From Magnetococcales bacterium (GTDB lineage: Bacteria > Pseudomonadota > Magnetococcia > Magnetococcales > Magnetaquicoccaceae): a stretch of 34,627 nt of DNA. Of the stretch, positions 14,693-24,336 are shown in pieces; positions within the stretch are counted from its first letter, which is position 1; each line of letters opens with the position of its first letter. The DNA lies in the NCBI GenBank assembly GCA_015231775.1, contig JADGAY010000021.1, positions 1 through 34,627 on the forward strand, given 5' to 3'. The notes beneath the pieces were generated by a model. The model did not search any database and was not told the DNA's origin. It worked only from the letters and a program-made list of their open reading frames with translations. Made by a program: the position numbers and the translations under genes.

Positions 14693-17428
14693 ATGAGCGG
14701 GTTTGACTCCCGTATCCTGGTGGTGGATGACAAGCCGGCCAATCTTCTGGCCATGCGCCGGCTGCTGGCCCCGTTGCGCGTCGAAATCCTGGAGGCGGAC
14801 AGCGGCCAGGCGGCGTTGAGCCTAGCGCTGCAGCAGGAGCTGGCCCTGATCCTGTTGGACGTGGACATGCCCGGCATGGACGGCTACGAGGTGGCCCAGG
14901 CCCTCAAGGGGTTCGAGGGCACCCGCCAAATCCCGATCATCTTTCTGACCGCGGCTTTCAAGGATCACCCCCACCTGTTGCGCGCCTATCAGTTCGGAGG
15001 GGTGGACTATCTGGAAAAACCCTTCGACGATCAGGTCTTGATCGCCAAGACCCAGGTTTTTCTGGATCTGCATCGCGCCCGCCTCGCCCAGAAACATGCC
15101 CTGGATCTGCTCGCCCAGGGCGAGGCGAAGTTCCGTGCCATGGTCGATCACGTCGGCATCGGCCTGATCCGGCTCGACACGGAGTATGGACAGATTCTCG
15201 AGGCCAACCAGGCCTTTGCCGCCATGCTCGGTTACGACTCCGCCAACGAACTCCTCGGCACCACCATCATGGAGGTGACCCATCCGGACGACCTGGAGTC
15301 AAGCCGCGACGCCATTTTGCAACTGCGGGACGGACAGTGCACCTCGACCTGGTTCGAAAAGCGGTATGTCAAACGGGATCAAGAGGTGATCTGGGCCAGG
15401 GTGACCGCCTCCTTGCAACCCGGTCCGGAACCGGATCGTCTCTTCATCGTCTCGGCAATCGAGGACATCACCGAAAACAAGCGTCTCGACCAGCGTCTGC
15501 GGGAGCAGAACGAGGCTTTGGGGCTGTTCTACAATCTCCCCTTCATCGGCATGGCCATCACCAGCCCGGAGACCAAGCAGTGGCGTTCGGTCAACGATGC
15601 CTTGTGCCAGATGCTCGGCTACGGTCGGGATGAGCTGTTTGCCATGACCTGGGAGGAGCTGACCCATCCCGAGGATCTGGACCTGGATCTGCGACAGTTC
15701 CAACAGGTCATGAATGGCATCATCGACGGCTACGTGATCGACAAGCGCTTCATCCGCAAGGATGGTCAAGTCGTGGAGACCCAGCTCGATGTCAAATGCC
15801 TGCGCGGTCCGGATGGACATGTGGAGCGCGTCGTGGCCACGATTCTGGACATCAGCGAACGCAAGCACACCGAGACCACCCTGCGCAAATTGACCGCGGA
15901 TTTGGATCGCTTCTTCACCATGTCCCTGGATCTGCTCTGCATCGCCGACATGCAGGGTCGCTTTCTGCGCCTGAACCGCGCCTGGGAGCAGACCCTCGGC
16001 TATCCCCTGGACACGTTGCAGGGGAGTTTATTCATGGATTATGTCCACCCCGAGGACCGGGAAGCCACCCTGGAGGCGATGAAGCAGCTCGAACAGGGGG
16101 ATCAGGTTATCAACTTCACCAATCGCTACCTCTGCCGGGATGGAAGTCACCGCTGGATCGAATGGCGTTCCACCCCCTATCGGGACAAGCAACTGGTCTA
16201 TGCCGTTGCCCGTGACATCACCGAACGGATGCATCTCGAAGAGGAGCTGCGCCATGCCAAACAGCGCGCCGAGGAGGCCAGTCAGGCCAAGAGCGAATTT
16301 CTGGCCAACATGAGCCATGAGATCCGCACGCCGATGAACGTGGTGCTGGGCATGGCCGAGATGCTCCTCGAGAGCGAATTGACCGATCAGCAGCGCCTGT
16401 TCGCACAGACCATGCACAACTCCGGCAAGACGCTTCTGGGGGTGATCAACGATGTCCTGGACTTCTCGCGCATTGAGTCGGGCCGGCTTTCGCTCACCCA
16501 TCTTCCTTTTTCACCCGCTCGGGTCACCGAGGAGATTGTCCATCTGATGCGCATCGCCGCGGAGGGAAAGGGTTTGACGATGAGCCTGGAGCTGGCCGAC
16601 GATCTGCCCGAAGCCATGCTCGGCGATGAGAGCCGGGTGCGCCAGATTCTGATCAACCTGTTGGGCAATGCGTTGAAATTCACCGAGCAGGGCCACATCC
16701 ACGCACGGGTGCGACGGGATCCGGAGGCATCGGACCGTTTGCGTTTCACGGTCGAGGATAGCGGAATCGGCATTGCGCCCGAGCAGCAACGGGTGATCTT
16801 CGAGCAGTTCATGCAGGCCGATACCGGCGTGACGCGCCGCTATGGCGGGACCGGTTTGGGGTTGTCGATCTCGCGCCGGCTGGTGGAGTTGATGGATGGA
16901 CGGATCTGGGTGGAGAGTCGTCTGGGGGAAGGGAGTCGCTTTGAATTCACCCTGCCGATCCGGGAGGTGGCGCGGGTCGAGGAGAACCAGGACACCGAAC
17001 ACCCCATGATCGAACCACACGGTCCGTCCCTCACGATCCTGTTGGCCGAGGATGTGGAGGAGAACCGCATTCTGTTCGAGAACTATCTGCTGCACACCAC
17101 GCATCGTCTGGTGATGGTCACGGATGGGGTCCAGGCCGTGGATCGAATCCAAAAGGAGCGGTTCGACGTGGTGTTCATGGATGTGCGCATGCCGCGCCTG
17201 GACGGCTATGAGGCGGCGCGGCGCATTCGCGATTGGGAACGGGCAACCGGCCAGCCGCCGGTCACCATCATCACCCTGTCGGCCCACGCCATGGAGGGGG
17301 AGCAGGAGCGGAGCCTGGCGGCGGGGTGTGACCACTATCTGGCCAAGCCGATCGGCAAAAGGGCGTTGCTGAAGGTCTTGTGCAACCTCGCCGGGCGTGG
17401 CGAGATGGATCAAAAGGGGCAGCCATGA
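14693..17428 (+). CDS. Hybrid sensor histidine kinase: REC - three PAS - HisKA - HATPase - REC
   Basis: Cytoplasmic hybrid histidine kinase of 911 residues with no membrane segment. Order of domains: receiver (about 7-125, phospho-acceptor Asp56, Lys109 in LEKP), PAS (about 142-262), PAS (about 275-390) and PAS (about 400-512). HisKA follows with phospho-His542 in MSHEIRTPMN. The HATPase has the N box NLLGNALKF (655-663), G1 DSGIGI (689-694) and G2 GTGLGLSI (719-726). The C-terminal receiver is about 781-900 with Asp830 and Lys885. Each PAS has a HPED or HPDD motif and ends in a PAC-type DIT/DIS segment. The ligands are unknown. It starts at the ATG after AAGGAAA, and its stop overlaps the start of a 57-aa Cys-rich membrane protein. 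Signals likely leave through an unlinked HPt or response regulator. Confidence 0.95.
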   Translation: MSGFDSRILVVDDKPANLLAMRRLLAPLRVEILEADSGQAALSLALQQELALILLDVDMPGMDGYEVAQALKGFEGTRQIPIIFLTAAFKDHPHLLRAYQFGGVDYLEKPFDDQVLIAKTQVFLDLHRARLAQKHALDLLAQGEAKFRAMVDHVGIGLIRLDTEYGQILEANQAFAAMLGYDSANELLGTTIMEVTHPDDLESSRDAILQLRDGQCTSTWFEKRYVKRDQEVIWARVTASLQPGPEPDRLFIVSAIEDITENKRLDQRLREQNEALGLFYNLPFIGMAITSPETKQWRSVNDALCQMLGYGRDELFAMTWEELTHPEDLDLDLRQFQQVMNGIIDGYVIDKRFIRKDGQVVETQLDVKCLRGPDGHVERVVATILDISERKHTETTLRKLTADLDRFFTMSLDLLCIADMQGRFLRLNRAWEQTLGYPLDTLQGSLFMDYVHPEDREATLEAMKQLEQGDQVINFTNRYLCRDGSHRWIEWRSTPYRDKQLVYAVARDITERMHLEEELRHAKQRAEEASQAKSEFLANMSHEIRTPMNVVLGMAEMLLESELTDQQRLFAQTMHNSGKTLLGVINDVLDFSRIESGRLSLTHLPFSPARVTEEIVHLMRIAAEGKGLTMSLELADDLPEAMLGDESRVRQILINLLGNALKFTEQGHIHARVRRDPEASDRLRFTVEDSGIGIAPEQQRVIFEQFMQADTGVTRRYGGTGLGLSISRRLVELMDGRIWVESRLGEGSRFEFTLPIREVARVEENQDTEHPMIEPHGPSLTILLAEDVEENRILFENYLLHTTHRLVMVTDGVQAVDRIQKERFDVVFMDVRMPRLDGYEAARRIRDWERATGQPPVTIITLSAHAMEGEQERSLAAGCDHYLAKPIGKRALLKVLCNLAGRGEMDQKGQP

Positions 17429-17598
17429 ACCCAACCCTGGATGCCATCCTGCTCGGCGTGATCCTGCTGGGTTGCCTGGTCTACATCGCCCGGCGGCTGC
17501 GGGGGATGTTCTCCCCCCGGCGCGGCGGCGGATCCGGCTGCCAAGGGTGCGCCAAGGGTGCAAGCTGCGACGCCCGCCGACCCGCCGACCCGCCGTGA
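17425..17598 (+). CDS. Small Cys-rich membrane protein, FeoB-associated type
   Basis: Protein of 57 residues: one N-terminal transmembrane helix (about residues 7-24), then a basic stretch, then a tail with GSGCQGCAKGASC, a C-x2-C-x5-C cluster. Size and layout match the FeoB-associated Cys-rich membrane proteins, which usually lie next to ferrous-iron transporter genes; their role is not known. No feoA or feoB is visible here. Its ATG overlaps the kinase stop (ATGA at 17425-17428), so the two are probably translated together. The cysteines could bind iron, a cluster or zinc. It ends 9 bp from the convergent ParA gene. Confidence 0.75.
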   Translation: MNPTLDAILLGVILLGCLVYIARRLRGMFSPRRGGGSGCQGCAKGASCDARRPADPP

Positions 17599-17607
17599 CA
17601 TCCGCCG

Positions 17608-18612
17608 TCACTCGGGCAAGGGGATCCCGGCACGCTGGAGAATGTCCAGGGTCAAGTTCTTGAAAAGGTCGTAAGCTTTCTTGACGTAATCAGCATGTGA
17701 CCCGATGGCGCCATCACTGGGTTTCAGGTGAAAGATCGGCTTGCGCGCCTCCTGGGCCATGGGCATCAGGCTGCGAAAGTGGCGCAACAAGGCGAAGCAG
17801 TGCGGATCCTGGGTCGTAGTGGGCCAATTCCCGTCCGGGGAGGACTCCTCCAGAACCGCGACATGATAGGTCTCCGGGATGCGCGCGATCCATTTCTCAT
17901 AGGCCCGGACCGGTTCGTTTTCGCGGGTTGAATGGGCCATCACCATATAACCCAGTGGCCGCATCTCCCCCTTGGGCAGGATCAGGGAGGGATCGGGATT
18001 TCTTTGCAGCCGCTCCCGCCACCCCTTGCGCCAGTCGCGCAGGGTCGGTCCCAGGTTGCGCAACCCCTGCAATGAGAAGAGATCCGGCGCCAGGGGAATC
18101 ACCACGCTGTCGGCGGCGATCAGCGCCGAACGGTTGATCGCCCCCAGATTCGGCCCCAGATCCACCAGAATCACCTGGGCCGCGTGCGCTTCCGCCCCCT
18201 TCTGCAACACGCGCCAAAAGGCAGAGATAACCCGAAAGGCGCGTTTATCGTGGTCCAGACATTTGGGCCAAACCTGAGAGAGATCGTCCTCGAAACGGGT
18301 CAAGGACATTTCGCCTGGTATCAAGGCCAATCTCTCATCGATCAGCGCCAATTGCGGCGTGACGATATCGCCGATGCCATCCTTCAAGGGTTGAATGGCG
18401 CGAAAGATGGTCTTGGGGGTCTCGTCTTCCGGCCAAAGCGCCTCCAGCCGTTCTTCGTCCAGGAGTACGCTGGTCAGATTGCCTTGTGGATCCAGATCCG
18501 CGACCAGCACACGCAACCCCAGATCCGACATCATCCAGGCCAAATGATAGACCAGGGAGGTCTTGCCCACACCTCCCTTGTTGTTGAAAAAAGCGATGAC
18601 CGGGGTGCTCAT
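17608..18612 (-). CDS. ParA-family ATPase
   Basis: ParA/MinD-type ATPase of 334 residues, somewhat longer than typical ParA (about 260). The deviant Walker A KGGVGKTS is at residues 12-19, the switch motif VADLDPQGNLT at 37-47 and the Walker B-type VILVDLGPNLGAINRSAL about 146-163. Such ATPases form DNA-bound dimers that position plasmids, chromosomes or protein complexes. No parB gene or parS-like sites are next to it. Instead its ATG overlaps the stop of the upstream AlbA_2/GHKL gene (ATGA at 18609-18612). The C-terminal part (from about 215) lacks familiar motifs and may contact the partner protein. Confidence 0.88.
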   Translation of the reverse strand: MSTPVIAFFNNKGGVGKTSLVYHLAWMMSDLGLRVLVADLDPQGNLTSVLLDEERLEALWPEDETPKTIFRAIQPLKDGIGDIVTPQLALIDERLALIPGEMSLTRFEDDLSQVWPKCLDHDKRAFRVISAFWRVLQKGAEAHAAQVILVDLGPNLGAINRSALIAADSVVIPLAPDLFSLQGLRNLGPTLRDWRKGWRERLQRNPDPSLILPKGEMRPLGYMVMAHSTRENEPVRAYEKWIARIPETYHVAVLEESSPDGNWPTTTQDPHCFALLRHFRSLMPMAQEARKPIFHLKPSDGAIGSHADYVKKAYDLFKNLTLDILQRAGIPLPE

Positions 18613-19805
18613 GACCGTTGCCTCAGGGTGACCAGAACATGGTTCTCCTCGATCGTGAACTCGGGCGGTGGATTGCCATTCTGATGCAGCGCCTTGCGCG
18701 CCATGGCGATGCCCGCGCCAAACCGTTGCACATAGCCGAGGTTTTTCATCACCTCCGCGACATTCGGGTTGCGGTAGTCGGTGACATTCGGCGCGCCGAA
18801 ATTCTCCCGGTTCACCTGCCCGAACGGACCGCCGGGATTCTGGATCTCCACCCGGTCATCAAACCAATAAACCCGCACCGGCGCATGACTGGTGCAGTAG
18901 TCCCGGTGCATGATGGCATTGCGCGCCAACTGTTGCAGGGCGGTCAGGGGGTAATCCGAACGGCGTACCTCCGTGGGACCGGCCATGAGATCGGTGGCCA
19001 CGCGGTTATGAAGTCGAAAAAGCTCTTCGAGTTGGCGCAATTGATCATGAATCGTACCGTGGATCTCCTTCTGGTCGAGAATCTGGCCATCCGCCATATC
19101 CAAACCCGCGAAGCGAACGAACTGCACATAAGCCCCCGGCAGGAACTCCACCGGTGACCGGCCCACCGCCAGCAGCCCGACCACGGTGGGCACGGGTGGC
19201 GGGTCCGATGTGGTGAAACGCAGGGAGGCCAGTTGGTGCGCGTAAGGGCGATGGTTCTCCTCCAGGGTCTCGGGAGCCACGGCGCAGGGCAGATAGGTTC
19301 GTGAGAAAAAGTCACGATCCAGATCGTCGAGGGTGGCCTGGCGGATGGGTGTGAGATCGTGGGGCAGATTTCGTCCGCGCTGTTTTTCACTCAGGCGATG
19401 TTCTTCCGCCACGGTGGCCACGGCGCGGCGCGGTCCCACGCGAATCCAGGTGCGGCCATCGGCCCGGACCGGAGGGGAGTCCGAGGGTTGCACGATGATC
19501 ACGGCCAGGGTGCGCTCCAGCAACGTGCGCTTTTCCACGCTCATGACGGGAAATGGCAGGATATTGCCATCGGAACGCACGTGAGCCAGCTTCAAAAGCA
19601 GTGCGTCGTCGATTGTCAGACCAGACCACCCACCACGATCCTTCTCCCCGATGAACAGCACCCCTGGCAGACGATGGTTGGGCATGTCGTTGGCAAAGGC
19701 GCAGATGGCTTGCCGAATTTTATCCCTTTCCGTAAAGGACTCCTTGCGCTCCACGCGGTCCGACTCCAGGTCGGTCAACAAGGCGATCAGCTCTTCGTCG
19801 GTCAT
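18609..19805 (-). CDS. AlbA_2 (Schlafen-type) and GHKL-like ATP-binding protein
   Basis: Protein of about 398 residues with an N-terminal AlbA_2 domain (about 8-130), shown by ESDRVERKES, IRQAICAFANDMPNH, GVLFIG and the end IRVGPRRAVAT. The middle part (about 140-275) is family-specific. The C-terminal third is like the ATPase-like region of RecG-type regulators, with RNAIMHRDY, VEIQNPGGPFG, RNPNVAEVMKNLGYVQRFGAGI and FTIEENHVLVTL. Such proteins are annotated as transcriptional regulators or RNA-binding proteins, and the function of this subfamily is not settled. The ATG at 19805 is favoured because relatives begin with MTDEEL; an ATG at 19823 would add six residues. It is coupled by ATGA to the ParA gene, so the two likely act together. 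Confidence 0.85.
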   Translation of the reverse strand: MTDEELIALLTDLESDRVERKESFTERDKIRQAICAFANDMPNHRLPGVLFIGEKDRGGWSGLTIDDALLLKLAHVRSDGNILPFPVMSVEKRTLLERTLAVIIVQPSDSPPVRADGRTWIRVGPRRAVATVAEEHRLSEKQRGRNLPHDLTPIRQATLDDLDRDFFSRTYLPCAVAPETLEENHRPYAHQLASLRFTTSDPPPVPTVVGLLAVGRSPVEFLPGAYVQFVRFAGLDMADGQILDQKEIHGTIHDQLRQLEELFRLHNRVATDLMAGPTEVRRSDYPLTALQQLARNAIMHRDYCTSHAPVRVYWFDDRVEIQNPGGPFGQVNRENFGAPNVTDYRNPNVAEVMKNLGYVQRFGAGIAMARKALHQNGNPPPEFTIEENHVLVTLRQRS

Positions 19806-19872
19806 TTGGCTCGGCCCATCCAAAGATTTGGAATCCAGATGTTTGTGTTTATGCTAACAGAGGCGCGCGCAT

Positions 19873-19895
19873 AAAAAAACCGCCCATGGGCGGTG
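19873..19895 (-). terminator. Intrinsic terminator downstream of aclA
   Basis: The perfect palindrome CCGCCCATGGGCGG at 19880-19893 is followed on the minus strand by seven T (plus-strand A run 19873-19879). It should stop leftward transcripts from the ACL operon before the AlbA_2/ParA operon. It lies 262 bp past the aclA stop. Confidence 0.75.
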
Positions 19896-20156: not shown

Positions 20157-22922
20157 TTACGACACGAACGAGCAGGCGCTCGCCGCAGTGCGGGTATCCA
20201 TGTCGCGACCACGATTGGTGTGATCGTCCACCTCGGCGGCGGTGCCGATCATGCGCCCGAACAGGAAGGTGATGAAGGCCGCGCTCTCCATGGACTCGGC
20301 ACTCACCTCGCCCCGCGCATAGGGCTGCCAGAGCATCTTCAACAGCAGAACCGCGATCACCGCGTCCACGTTCACGCAGTAGATCTCCCGGCTGATGCCG
20401 CTCTTGTAGAGCGCGTTCACCAACTGGTGATAGAAATCCTGAAACACGTTGTACGAGCCGCGCTGCTTGAAGAGGTTGTCCACAAACACCTCACGCGGAT
20501 CGAAGTTCTCCGGCTTGCCCTTGAACACCGGATGGTTGACGCAGGGGATCTTGGCGTAATCCATGCTCCCGGCGCCCTTGGCCTTGACCTTGTACGCCTT
20601 GTACTCGGCGGCGTAGGCCATGGCCATGGCCATCAGATCCAATCCGTGATTCGCATCGCCCGGATCCGTGAGCCCGGAATCCTTGAACCGCTCCATCAGG
20701 AAGGCGATGGCCTCGTAACCGTTGCCGCCGTGGGCGAAACCGGTGTGGGTGAGGAAACCCAGATAGGCCTTGTTGATCTGGATCCGCTCCGGGGCCATGG
20801 GGCCGTCGGCGCTGACCGCGCCCTTGGGGCCCTGGGCGGAGATGGTACCCGGTCCGTTGGTGACCAGAAGACCCACCAGAACCGAGAAGCTGAACAGCTC
20901 CTCCTCGCTGGGACGACGGTTGAACAGGGAGAGGAAGGCGGTCTCGGTGAAGCTCCAGGATTCGAGCAGCTCGGTGTTGTCCACCCCCGAAAAGCTCTTC
21001 TTGTCCTGACGCGCGGAGGGGACCACGCAGCCGACCAGGGAGCTGAAGATGCGCATGTGCCACGGCATGGCCAGCAAAGTGGTCACCGACAAACGACGCC
21101 GCGCCAGCCCACGCCAGGCCAGATGGCAACAGATGGCGGCCAGAACCGTGCTGTCGCGCACCCCGTCGCTGCCCGTGCCGAGCGCCTTGACGAAATCGAT
21201 GAAGACCGACTTGCAGCCACGCGCCTCCAGGGCACTCAACATCGACTTGCCGCGCTTGCCGCTCTTGGGAGAGATCAGCATGTCACGGGCGCCGCTTTCG
21301 GTGGCCTGGGCCAACTGGGCCTGGAAATCGAACGCCACGTTGTTCGGATCGGTCAGCCCGGAGTGTCCGAACAGCTCCACCAGGGCCTGCACCGCATCCC
21401 GCGTCGGCTTGATCTCATTGGGACCAAGCATGGCCAGACCGGTGGAGAGCACCACGTTCGGGCTGCTGCCCGCCTCGCGGGCCGCATCCGCGGCCAGGAT
21501 TCCCGGCAGGCCGAAGTGGTTGACAAAGGCGTTCAAGGCGACGTTGGCCATGGCGCGTCCGGTGGCATCCGGATACTCACGGGTCAACGCCATCACCAGA
21601 TTCTCTTCCAGGGTGTGGGTGGAGGCATCGAGCACGCTCACCCCATGCACCTGGGAGACCTGGGTTTTGGGATCCATGCGCGAGGCGCCGGAGCAATCCT
21701 TCATCGCCTGACGCGGGAAGATGGCGCCCACCTGCCTGCTTTGGGCCGCGATCTGCTCGTTGTAGGGGGCGAGCGCCTCGACCACCGGGAGCTGCAGCTC
21801 CTTGGGCAGCGGGATATCCTGGTCGGCGAAGTACCAACACTTGAGGGAGAGATCGCCACGGGGCTCGAAGTCCGGCTTGATGCCGTTCATCATCATCACG
21901 GCGGTCATGGCCTGGGGGATGTGGGCGATGTTGGTCACCACCGCGCCCTTGGCCGAGCAGGCCGGGGAGTCCGGGGTGAAGATCGACTTGACCCCGAACT
22001 TCTCCATGAACCAACGCTCCTTGGAGGCCGCGTCGTCGCCGGAACCGGCGATGGCGCCCGCGTGACCGCAGGAGCGGGTCAGCTTGGCCTTCCAGCGGCC
22101 CACCACGCAGGCCACCACCGGCTTGCGGAACACCAGATCACGTTCGTAGTATCCGCCCGGCTCGATGTACATGACGGCGGCTTTGGAGCGGTCGTCGTTG
22201 TGCATGGCATGGGTGAACTCGGGGGCGGCGTAGTGGATGTAGACATCCTTGCCCGACGACACCGACACCGTGGTACCCCAACCAGCGGTGAGCAGGTAGG
22301 TGGCGATGGTGGTGGTGAAGTTGCCGGAGTTGGAATAAAGGGCCACCGAACCCGGCACCAGGGACTCTTGCGGGGCGTTGCCGCCCAGCGCGCCGCCGAT
22401 GCGCACATGGTTGTGGGCATCGCCGATGCCAAGGCAGTTGGCGCCGAAGACATCCACGCCGCGCCACTGGCAGTATTGGCGGATCATGCGGGCGTGCTTG
22501 ACCTTCACCTTCTCGGTGAGGATCACCACCTTGTTGAGATCCGGATTGACCCGCACCGCCTCGATGACCGCATCCTTCACCCCGTCCGGTGGCACGTAGA
22601 CCACCGCGACATTGAATTTCTTGCCGTCGTTGATGGCCTCGAGCACGTTGTTGTAGACCGGGATGTCGCCGATCTTGGTTTTCATGACCGAGCCGGAACG
22701 GCCCGGCATGACGCCGCAGACGATGTTGCCGCCGGAGTACTCATGGCTGATCGGCGTGACCGTGGTACTTTCGCCGCCCAGGATGTTGAGCACGCAGACC
22801 CGATCATCCTTGGTGGCCAGGTCGGCCAGGGAGTGGATGCCGACGAAGTAGGGGAACTCCTTTTCACCCTTCGGATGCAGAAAAGTTTGCCCGATGGCGG
22901 GCATGGTATCGATCAATGGCAT
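20157..22922 (-). CDS. aclA: ATP citrate lyase, large subunit (divergent, type II-like)
   Basis: Protein of 921 residues with a succinyl-CoA-synthetase-alpha-like N-terminal half and a citrate-synthase-like C-terminus. With AclB it should cleave citrate with ATP and CoA into acetyl-CoA and oxaloacetate, a key step of the reverse TCA cycle. ALYSNSGNFTTTIAT is at 195-209. The phospho-histidine is His287 in SCGHAGA. The citrate-synthase-like part covers about 640-905, with FAHGGNGYEA (729-738) and NVDAVIAVL (851-859). The protein is about 300 residues longer than type I AclA of green sulfur bacteria (about 610); the extra length lies mainly around 400-640. The ATG at 22922 follows GAGG, and upstream residues cover the repeat. 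Divergent enzymes like this are known from the magnetotactic coccus MC-1. Confidence 0.87.
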   Translation of the reverse strand: MPLIDTMPAIGQTFLHPKGEKEFPYFVGIHSLADLATKDDRVCVLNILGGESTTVTPISHEYSGGNIVCGVMPGRSGSVMKTKIGDIPVYNNVLEAINDGKKFNVAVVYVPPDGVKDAVIEAVRVNPDLNKVVILTEKVKVKHARMIRQYCQWRGVDVFGANCLGIGDAHNHVRIGGALGGNAPQESLVPGSVALYSNSGNFTTTIATYLLTAGWGTTVSVSSGKDVYIHYAAPEFTHAMHNDDRSKAAVMYIEPGGYYERDLVFRKPVVACVVGRWKAKLTRSCGHAGAIAGSGDDAASKERWFMEKFGVKSIFTPDSPACSAKGAVVTNIAHIPQAMTAVMMMNGIKPDFEPRGDLSLKCWYFADQDIPLPKELQLPVVEALAPYNEQIAAQSRQVGAIFPRQAMKDCSGASRMDPKTQVSQVHGVSVLDASTHTLEENLVMALTREYPDATGRAMANVALNAFVNHFGLPGILAADAAREAGSSPNVVLSTGLAMLGPNEIKPTRDAVQALVELFGHSGLTDPNNVAFDFQAQLAQATESGARDMLISPKSGKRGKSMLSALEARGCKSVFIDFVKALGTGSDGVRDSTVLAAICCHLAWRGLARRRLSVTTLLAMPWHMRIFSSLVGCVVPSARQDKKSFSGVDNTELLESWSFTETAFLSLFNRRPSEEELFSFSVLVGLLVTNGPGTISAQGPKGAVSADGPMAPERIQINKAYLGFLTHTGFAHGGNGYEAIAFLMERFKDSGLTDPGDANHGLDLMAMAMAYAAEYKAYKVKAKGAGSMDYAKIPCVNHPVFKGKPENFDPREVFVDNLFKQRGSYNVFQDFYHQLVNALYKSGISREIYCVNVDAVIAVLLLKMLWQPYARGEVSAESMESAAFITFLFGRMIGTAAEVDDHTNRGRDMDTRTAASACSFVS

Positions 22923-23064: not shown

Positions 23065-24336
23065 TTACCTGACCCCCATCTTCTGGGCGATCACCTGACG
23101 GCCACCGTTTTTCATCCAGGTGTCCACGGCCACCGCGTAGTTGATCACTTCGCTCATGGCGGAGTCGTAACCGAACATGGCGTGCGGGATCCCCAGGGAG
23201 TCCATGGTATCCTTGAGGTAGCCCAGACCTTGCACCAGATTGGGTCCGCCGCGTCCCACCACCACGAACATCGGCGTGGGACCGCGCTCGTTGAAGTAGG
23301 AGCGCAACCCGTCGCCCATGGCGCGGAAGGTCTCGTAGATGTCGGTGTTGTTGGCCTTGCCGCCGATCAGGAACAGCACGTTGGTCTGGGAGAGCCAGTG
23401 CTTGTAGGTGATGTCGCTGATCAGCTTCATCTTGGCGTAGGGCGGGTTGCCACCGAAGTCCGAGGAGATGGTGGCCAAGTCACCCAGAAGCTCGGTCACC
23501 AGGGCGTTGGCGCCACCGCCGAAGGTCATGGCGGTGATGGTGCCGGCGGGATTGATCACATACACATCCGACTGCCCCTGATAGGTGCGCAGTTGGTTGA
23601 CCTCGATTTCGTAGTCCGAGAGGTGGATGTTGTCCAGGGTCTCGGGCAGGTTGAGGCGCTTGGCGTTACGGTCGTCGCCGTCAAACGAGCACTTGAAGTC
23701 GCAGGCGATCGGGACCAGACGACCGTTCGGATCCCGCCACATGCGGATCGGATTGATCTCCAGTGTGGTCATGCCGTAGTTGTTGAACAGATCCCACAGC
23801 TTGGTGATGTTCTGCACCAGCGGGCTCAGGATCTCGTTCGGGGCATTCATCTTGTCCAGGGCGTTGGAGATGACGAACCCCTTCAAACCGGTCAGCGGAT
23901 CGAACGGCACCACCGCGATCTGGCTGGGTGGCAGCTCCTCGATGTCCATGCCGCCGTGATGGGTGATGGTCAGGGTCGGCGCGCGGTAGATGGTGTTGTC
24001 GGTCAAGGAGACGTAGATCTCGTGCTCGGCCTTGACGAACCCCTCGAAGGTGACCCCTTCGGATTTGGAGGTCTGATTGCCGTGGGTGTGTTCGGCGAAG
24101 TAGAGGCGCTCTTTTTCCTTGAGCGCGGTGCGGACATCCGTAGCCTTGCCCACCAGACCAGCCTTGCCTTTTTTGCCAATTCCGCCTTTGAAGATGGGTT
24201 TGATCAGGCATCCCCCCCATTTGTCGATCAGGGCCTTGATCTCATCGGGCGTCGCTTCCGGCCCGAGAACCTGGGCGCAGGGAAAATCGACGTATTTGAG
24301 TAATTTGGCCCCCCATTTCATGCCGGTGATTTGCAT
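23065..24336 (-). CDS. aclB: ATP citrate lyase, small subunit (ATP-grasp, succinyl-CoA-synthetase-beta-like)
   Basis: Protein of 423 residues, in the range of AclB (about 400). The N-terminal ATP-grasp domain includes CLIKPIFKGGIGKKGKAG (43-60) for nucleotide binding, followed by VGKATDVRTAL. ATP- and Mg-binding residues are expected near TTLEINPIRMW and IACDFKCSFDGDDRN. The C-terminal flavodoxin-like part has MTFGGGANALVTELLGDLA, NVLFLIGGKANN and VVVGRGGPNLVQGL, as in the succinyl-CoA synthetase beta family. It provides the ATP site, while AclA carries the phospho-histidine. The ATG at 24336 has GAGTGAGG upstream. It is the first gene of the operon, 135 bp after tRNA-Asp, with aclA following after a gap holding a repeat. 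A plain succinyl-CoA synthetase is unlikely given the citrate-synthase-like domain of its partner. Confidence 0.87.
   Translation of the reverse strand: MQITGMKWGAKLLKYVDFPCAQVLGPEATPDEIKALIDKWGGCLIKPIFKGGIGKKGKAGLVGKATDVRTALKEKERLYFAEHTHGNQTSKSEGVTFEGFVKAEHEIYVSLTDNTIYRAPTLTITHHGGMDIEELPPSQIAVVPFDPLTGLKGFVISNALDKMNAPNEILSPLVQNITKLWDLFNNYGMTTLEINPIRMWRDPNGRLVPIACDFKCSFDGDDRNAKRLNLPETLDNIHLSDYEIEVNQLRTYQGQSDVYVINPAGTITAMTFGGGANALVTELLGDLATISSDFGGNPPYAKMKLISDITYKHWLSQTNVLFLIGGKANNTDIYETFRAMGDGLRSYFNERGPTPMFVVVGRGGPNLVQGLGYLKDTMDSLGIPHAMFGYDSAMSEVINYAVAVDTWMKNGGRQVIAQKMGVR

Follow-up and report, generated by a model that had tools for sequence, protein, structure and literature searches.

A conserved, overlapping gene pair for an AlbA_2 (Schlafen-type) protein and a ParA-like ATPase, a probable toxin-antitoxin-like module

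ParA ATPases are textbook proteins of DNA partition and positioning. A ParA/Soj ATPase has also been proposed as one half of a toxin-antitoxin dyad, the other half being a HEPN protein of the MAE_18760 family, with the ATPase postulated to be the antitoxin (Anantharaman et al. 2013, PMC3710099). The same HEPN family is reported there to occur fused to Schlafen domains as well. Schlafen RNases have been described in BREX and BREX-related systems, where the Schlafen domain is joined to a minimal histidine-kinase-type domain and a C-terminal wHTH (2026 survey, PMC12839542). The two genes studied here encode an AlbA_2 (Schlafen-type) protein, hereafter AlbA, and a ParA-like ATPase, and they lie in a stretch of 34,627 nucleotides from a Magnetococcales bacterium, the whole of which is called the window (Table 1).

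Table 1. The gene pair and its surroundings, in positions of the window
Feature	Position	Strand	Remarks
AlbA_2 (Schlafen-type) + HATPase_c_4 protein	18609–19805	−	first of the two genes (398 aa); predicted RNase effector
ParA-like deviant Walker A ATPase (KGGVGKT)	17608–18612	−	334 aa; second gene of the pair
ATGA start/stop overlap of the AlbA_2 and ParA genes	18609–18612	−	from the sequence; possible translational coupling
Terminator-like hairpin with T run	19879–19894	−	separates the pair from the citrate-lyase-like gene upstream of it
57-aa ORF, downstream of the pair, convergent	17425–17598	+	no Pfam match
Histidine kinase, downstream of the pair, convergent	14693–17428	+	

Re-derivation of the open reading frames from the sequence gave the same coordinates, strand and ATGA overlap as a preliminary description of this DNA. 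The AlbA frame has its ATG at 19805 and an in-frame TTG further upstream at 19823. In Pfam, the ParA protein matches AAA_31 (6.3e-29), and the AlbA protein matches SLFN_AlbA_2 (PF04326; 2.4e-12, 47.9 bits against a cut-off of 25.3) followed by HATPase_c_4 (1.6e-19), which ends at residue 394 of 398. The preliminary description had also bounded the pair by a terminator upstream and a convergent gene downstream. Downstream, the 57-aa ORF and the histidine kinase do face the pair. Upstream, the hairpin and its T run are present, but such sites number 3 where 2.5 are expected in shuffles, and the terminator is therefore weak evidence. Farther out, a 921-aa protein (20157–22922) adjoins an ATP-citrate-lyase-like subunit (23065–24336); it has no Pfam match at 1e-8, yet it is present in all 21 genomes searched, its own included.

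The predicted structure of ParA reached pLDDT 87.3 and pTM 0.90, and its best match in the PDB was 3pg5, DIP2308 of C. diphtheriae (4.0e-16), followed by Soj (2bek). Its C-terminal part (residues about 204–334) is typical of its clade, and the Walker A lysines are kept in the paired ParAs, Lys12 in 29 of 30 and Lys17 in 30 of 30. Matches at 1e-40 were found in at least 34 of 398 genomes of the window's phylum and, in the other sets, in at least 4 of 296, at least 7 of 247, at least 12 of 289 and at least 13 of 274; at 1e-20, a match was present in 17 of 48 Magnetococcia genomes. Homologues of the ParA clade also occur on plasmids and phages (5 of 12 plasmid matches and 2 of 24 phage matches were examined). 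The genome profile searches, one AlbA-first search excepted, scored 5 to 8 first-look candidates per genome, so that misses are possible.

Across several bacterial groups AlbA and ParA make up a conserved, overlapping and co-varying unit, beyond a chance contact of two genes. AlbA lies directly upstream of ParA in 42 of 81 tabulated ParA places (L035 and L036, ParA 23%, were excluded, and by coordinates L034 is L012 and L106 is L072). In 38 of these 42 loci the overlap of 4 bases is kept, counted with an ATG start, or else GTG/TTG, closest to the profile start, and it is not due to chance. These loci are found in Magnetococcales, other Pseudomonadota, Actinomycetota and Acidobacteriota, including Actinoplanes, Kutzneria, Solibacter and Skermanella. 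Nearly all ParAs of the window's own subclade have AlbA upstream, the exceptions being those of Accumulibacter and of genome G1397. The association also holds when AlbA is the starting point: in AlbA-first profile searches of 322 genomes (48 Magnetococcia and 274 of a second class), every intact member of the AlbA_2 subfamily (17 of 17) adjoined ParA, and a truncated remnant (L192) was found without it. The subfamily is well set apart in these searches, at 285 bits or more, small pieces of broken loci excepted, against 160 bits for the best generic match. A pairing explained by the neighbourhood of AlbA_2 genes in general is ruled out, since all 22 generic AlbA_2/HATPase loci fetched were without a ParA-clade ORF within flanks of 1.5 kb. 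Among 30 intact pairs, AlbA and ParA distances co-vary with a Mantel r of 0.713, species relatedness being uncontrolled, and none of 5000 permutations was as high. The two genes are thus not usually found apart elsewhere, and the self-contained two-gene module without an adjacent ParB that the preliminary description had proposed is supported, recurring at unrelated loci.

AlbA is not the only partner: elsewhere in the same ParA clade, the adjoining gene encodes toxin-type enzymes of other kinds. In the remaining places the neighbour is a SIR2 protein (11), a HEPN protein (6), a RelA/SpoT protein (5), a protein labelled 'CYC' (3), a PIN protein (1) or none of these (13). Pfam confirmed the assignments as SIR2_2 (1 protein scanned), RelA_SpoT (2), HEPN_RiboL-PSP (3) and PIN_12 (1); for the 'CYC' proteins of L116, L129 and L132 no Pfam family above the cut-off was found. 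The three 'CYC' proteins are alike and, by eye, possibly resemble nucleotide cyclases. AlbA precedes ParA, whereas the SIR2, RelA/SpoT, HEPN, PIN and 'CYC' partners come after it, at junctions whose overlaps or gaps are mostly small and variable. Three of the 13 partnerless ParAs are cut or broken, and L133 groups with ordinary or outgroup ParAs; L084 has a stop codon within its ParA. Partner type follows the ParA tree, from which six ParA fragments were dropped and in which phage Pf1 carried the label 'none': the labels need 13 changes, against a mean of 39.8 when shuffled. SIR2-linked ParAs form a single clade (support 100/100) and RelA/SpoT-linked ParAs stand in two places (p-AU 0.023 for one clade); the tree does not show a single clade of all AlbA-linked ParAs, but a topology test does not reject one either (p-AU 0.23).

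Several of the mobile elements deserve mention. Plasmids of Vibrio ponticus, Spirosoma and Salmonella (L057, L058 and L059) bear two-gene modules of ParA and SIR2 with a 4-base overlap, annotated just as 'ParA/AAA family ATPase' and 'SIR2 family protein'. In phage Pf1 (prophage record AY324828, L062, 4013–4540), an unannotated ORF overlapping and directly 3′ of the ParA-like gene matches HEPN_RiboL-PSP at 2.4e-9; judged from its sequence, Pf1 seems to carry a ParA-HEPN dyad, and this ORF is one of the six HEPN partners counted above. Salmonella phage ST160 (L061, 3956–5062) has a solo ParA of the clade near the c2 repressor and early genes, which could be an exclusion factor or an antitoxin decoy.

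The AlbA protein has the residues expected of a Schlafen RNase. The triad E14/E19/D56 is kept in 32, 32 and 30 of 32 paired AlbA proteins, and its spacing of 5 and 37 residues is close to the 5 and 38 of E205/E210/D248 in SLFN13, a match by spacing and not by superposition. In SLFN13, mutation of E205, E210 or D248 diminished cleavage, and the E205A and E210A proteins were inactive (PMC5862951). Conservation at these positions is only slightly lower in generic AlbA_2 proteins (21, 20 and 21 of 22); the triad thus speaks for RNases throughout the group and does not set the pair apart. The predicted structure of AlbA is poor (pLDDT 62); with this low-confidence model, Foldseek gave 3lmm (DIP2311) as the best match (1.9e-12), then SLFN13 (5yd0, 2.4e-3), among weak matches to Schlafens (SLFN5/11/12/13/14) and the SAMD9 tRNase at E 2e-3 to 3e-2. 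At two loci a second AlbA_2-like protein is found downstream of the pair (L138, 5730–6911; L141, 342–2186).

The way in which loci decay leans to ParA as the keeper. Of 41 assessable loci, 30 are intact, 7 have lost or broken AlbA and kept ParA, none shows the reverse, and 4 have both genes broken. This count leaves out the loci truncated at contig ends (L051, L052, L053, L104, L112 and L139) and the AlbA fragment L192. Loss of the toxin with retention of the antitoxin is what is expected of a toxin-antitoxin pair. The asymmetry of 7:0 (p 0.016) comes mostly from ParA-first searches; restricted to the two classes for which AlbA-first searches were run as well, the count is 3:0 (p 0.25). In G218, AlbA is disrupted by an insertion that resembles an IS30-type transposase by eye. 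Among the seven loci, that of G044 has KGGVGTT as its Walker A motif, and its ParA may therefore be dead too; in a locus scored as intact (G001 C102), a stop precedes the usual ParA end by a few residues. Some of the broken loci may be assembly errors in MAGs.

The pair moves between loci and lineages. By eye, the neighbouring genes vary from one pair locus to another, and the ParA tree mixes Actinomycetota, Acidobacteriota and Pseudomonadota, as in the grouping of L097 with L117 (95/85). The citrate-lyase-like neighbour of the window's pair was found in every one of the 21 genomes searched, its own included. Beside this gene, no match to the histidine kinase, ParA or AlbA was found in 19 loci of relatives, of which 14 were fully informative, 3 had a contig end less than 400 bases from the gene and 2 had a gene end that was not located. 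A fixed Magnetococcales locus for the pair is therefore unsupported.

A few of the loci adjoin defence genes. In Actinoplanes, PglX and PglY of a BREX type 2 operon enclose the pair, and the ParA stop overlaps the PglY start; in L140 the pair is flanked by HmaB and HmaC; and L138 and L148 have, next to the pair, shortened HmaA pieces that look like remnants. Such loci, the two with HmaA remnants included, amount to 4 of 38; among the control regions there were 0 of 20, and the difference is not significant (p 0.29). Among the PADLOC matches listed, those of the first 25 of 42 matched families, Hma, Pgl or Brx models matched 6 of the 72 nearest flank ORFs (of 137) and none of 72 control ORFs (of 125; 73 were drawn and one left out), with p 0.028. 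The count is 6 and not 7 because two of three HmaA matches were traced to proteins and the third stayed untraced after ten more flank proteins were scanned. PADLOC models also match housekeeping genes of the flanks, such as DpdF on a topoisomerase and RTasPolA on a DNA polymerase, and most pair loci lie, by eye, among ordinary genes. A classical defence-island setting is only weakly supported: travel between unrelated loci, one of the checks set out in the preliminary description, is borne out, but defence operons account for only a few of the places. In PADLOC 2023, no named system model matched both proteins, with only partial matches to PDC-M28B, pAgo and Aga.

We favor reading the pair as a mobile module of two genes, toxin-antitoxin-like or of the abortive-infection kind, with AlbA as the RNase effector and ParA as its keeper or sensor, to which we give a probability of about 0.6. 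AlbA_2 is read as the effector chiefly because SIR2, RelA/SpoT, HEPN and PIN proteins are found in its place. The preliminary description had cast AlbA_2 as a regulator or activating partner of ParA; the opposite assignment, AlbA_2 as effector and ParA as controller, is suggested by the swapping of partners, the intact Schlafen triad and the earlier loss of AlbA. The AlbA_2 domain would be a metal-dependent RNase that probably cuts tRNA as Schlafens do, and the GHKL-type C-terminus may serve dimerization or nucleotide-dependent control. ParA would bind AlbA and silence it in one nucleotide- or DNA-bound state. More speculatively, infection might alter the state of ParA, through breakdown of host DNA, a change in nucleotides or a phage protein, and the RNase thus freed might stop translation. 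On a wider scale, we put at about even odds that one lineage of ParA-like ATPases is a shared control hub for a family of defence modules, replacing the chromosome-partition role, with five or more unrelated kinds of effector (Schlafen RNase, SIR2, RelA/SpoT-like synthetase, HEPN RNase and PIN RNase), probably a sixth, and with solo phage ParAs such as that of ST160 as possible antitoxin decoys.

ParA may instead be an infection sensor and activator, with AlbA silent until switched on, as in the sensor-effector pairs of CBASS or Avs. A single conserved ATPase with many swapped effectors would fit a sensor hub as well, and the few loci beside BREX and Hma genes agree with it. Nevertheless, ParA persists in the seven loci that lost AlbA, although an activator would be of no use once its effector is gone, and solo ParA genes exist; we regard an activating ParA as rather unlikely. 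ParA-type ATPases need partners, and this need would also be satisfied if the AlbA_2/GHKL protein were an activator of the ParA ATPase or a nucleic-acid-binding regulator, the two forming a regulatory or positioning pair without toxicity. Annotations of AlbA relatives on plasmids as RNA-binding protein, transcriptional regulator or RecG-like agree with such a role. However, the RNase triad is intact, the location is not conserved in relatives, and the ParA clade is also coupled to SIR2-, alarmone-synthetase- and RNase-type proteins, all of which makes a harmless regulator improbable.

The ParA fold, the deviant Walker A motif and the homologues on plasmids and phages would also suit a partition module of a mobile element, in which AlbA_2 replaces ParB. 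A scan of the genome (89% complete) for the ParB family (PF02195) found it on contigs C370 and C90 and not on C73, the contig of the window. The few short inverted repeats around the pair include none identified as parS. No ParB-like gene was noticed beside the homologous pairs, the scan with the ParB model covering the window's own genome only; the plasmid of Vibrio ponticus has a separate annotated ParA-ParB pair about 2.6 kb from its ParA-SIR2 pair. With no ParB on the contig, loci that by eye lie between ordinary genes, and effector-type partners elsewhere in the ParA clade, a partition system is very improbable, and we reject it.

If the favored reading is true, a branch of ParA proteins that controls swappable toxins would give partition ATPases a second role, and it would make sense of many orphan 'ParA family' annotations, be they chromosomal, plasmid-borne or in phages. 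Defence genes could then be annotated simply by looking for ParAs of about 330 aa that have the conserved C-terminal region and an overlapping neighbor. The Schlafen version would tie the fold of a vertebrate antiviral RNase to a testable two-gene system of bacteria.

The preliminary description regarded the pair as not described before. For ParA-Schlafen this holds in the literature searched: in the published papers, as far as their text was available and with preprints outside the scope, no description of ParA-Schlafen, ParA-SIR2 or ParA-RelA/SpoT pairs was found. The available text of PMC9503650 yielded no ParA-Schlafen pair, that of PMC10561277 treats Alba_2 and ParA apart, again with no such pair found, and the word ParA is absent from that of the BREX-Schlafen survey (PMC12839542). 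The claim does not extend to the ParA/Soj-HEPN dyad of 2013. That dyad is alike in joining a ParA/Soj-like ATPase to an RNase-type protein (PMC3710099). It differs in that the partner in the window is an SLFN_AlbA_2/HATPase protein and lies upstream, HEPN proteins being found only beside other members of the ParA clade. Those HEPN proteins match Pfam HEPN_RiboL-PSP and that of the dyad belongs to MAE_18760, and equivalence of the two is not assumed. SIR2, RelA/SpoT and PIN partners are absent from the account in PMC3710099, in the part of it available.

With the BREX-linked Schlafens (PMC12839542) the pair shares the combination of a Schlafen and a histidine-kinase-type domain, and at some loci a place beside BREX and Hma/DUF499 core genes, but the AlbA protein of the window ends 4 residues after HATPase_c_4, without a C-terminal wHTH. 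The likeness to mammalian Schlafens (SLFN5/11/12/13/14) and the SAMD9 tRNase, which rests on weak Foldseek matches of a predicted model and on the spacing of the Glu-Glu-Asp triad, would be a partial one: AlbA has one AlbA_2 domain and not a two-lobed N′-domain, has a GHKL C-terminus and belongs to a prokaryotic operon. Among solved structures, the best matches of ParA and AlbA are both from C. diphtheriae, DIP2308 (3pg5) and DIP2311 (3lmm), respectively, and their locus numbers suggest that the two genes lie close together. By eye, 3pg5 resembles the SIR2-linked branch of ParAs; 3lmm is longer (583 aa) and matches AlbA in sequence only in the HATPase part. In its general plan, a single conserved partner with many swapped toxin domains, the ParA clade recalls the Panacea antitoxin network (PMC8832971), where the conserved partner is another antitoxin domain and not a ParA-like ATPase.
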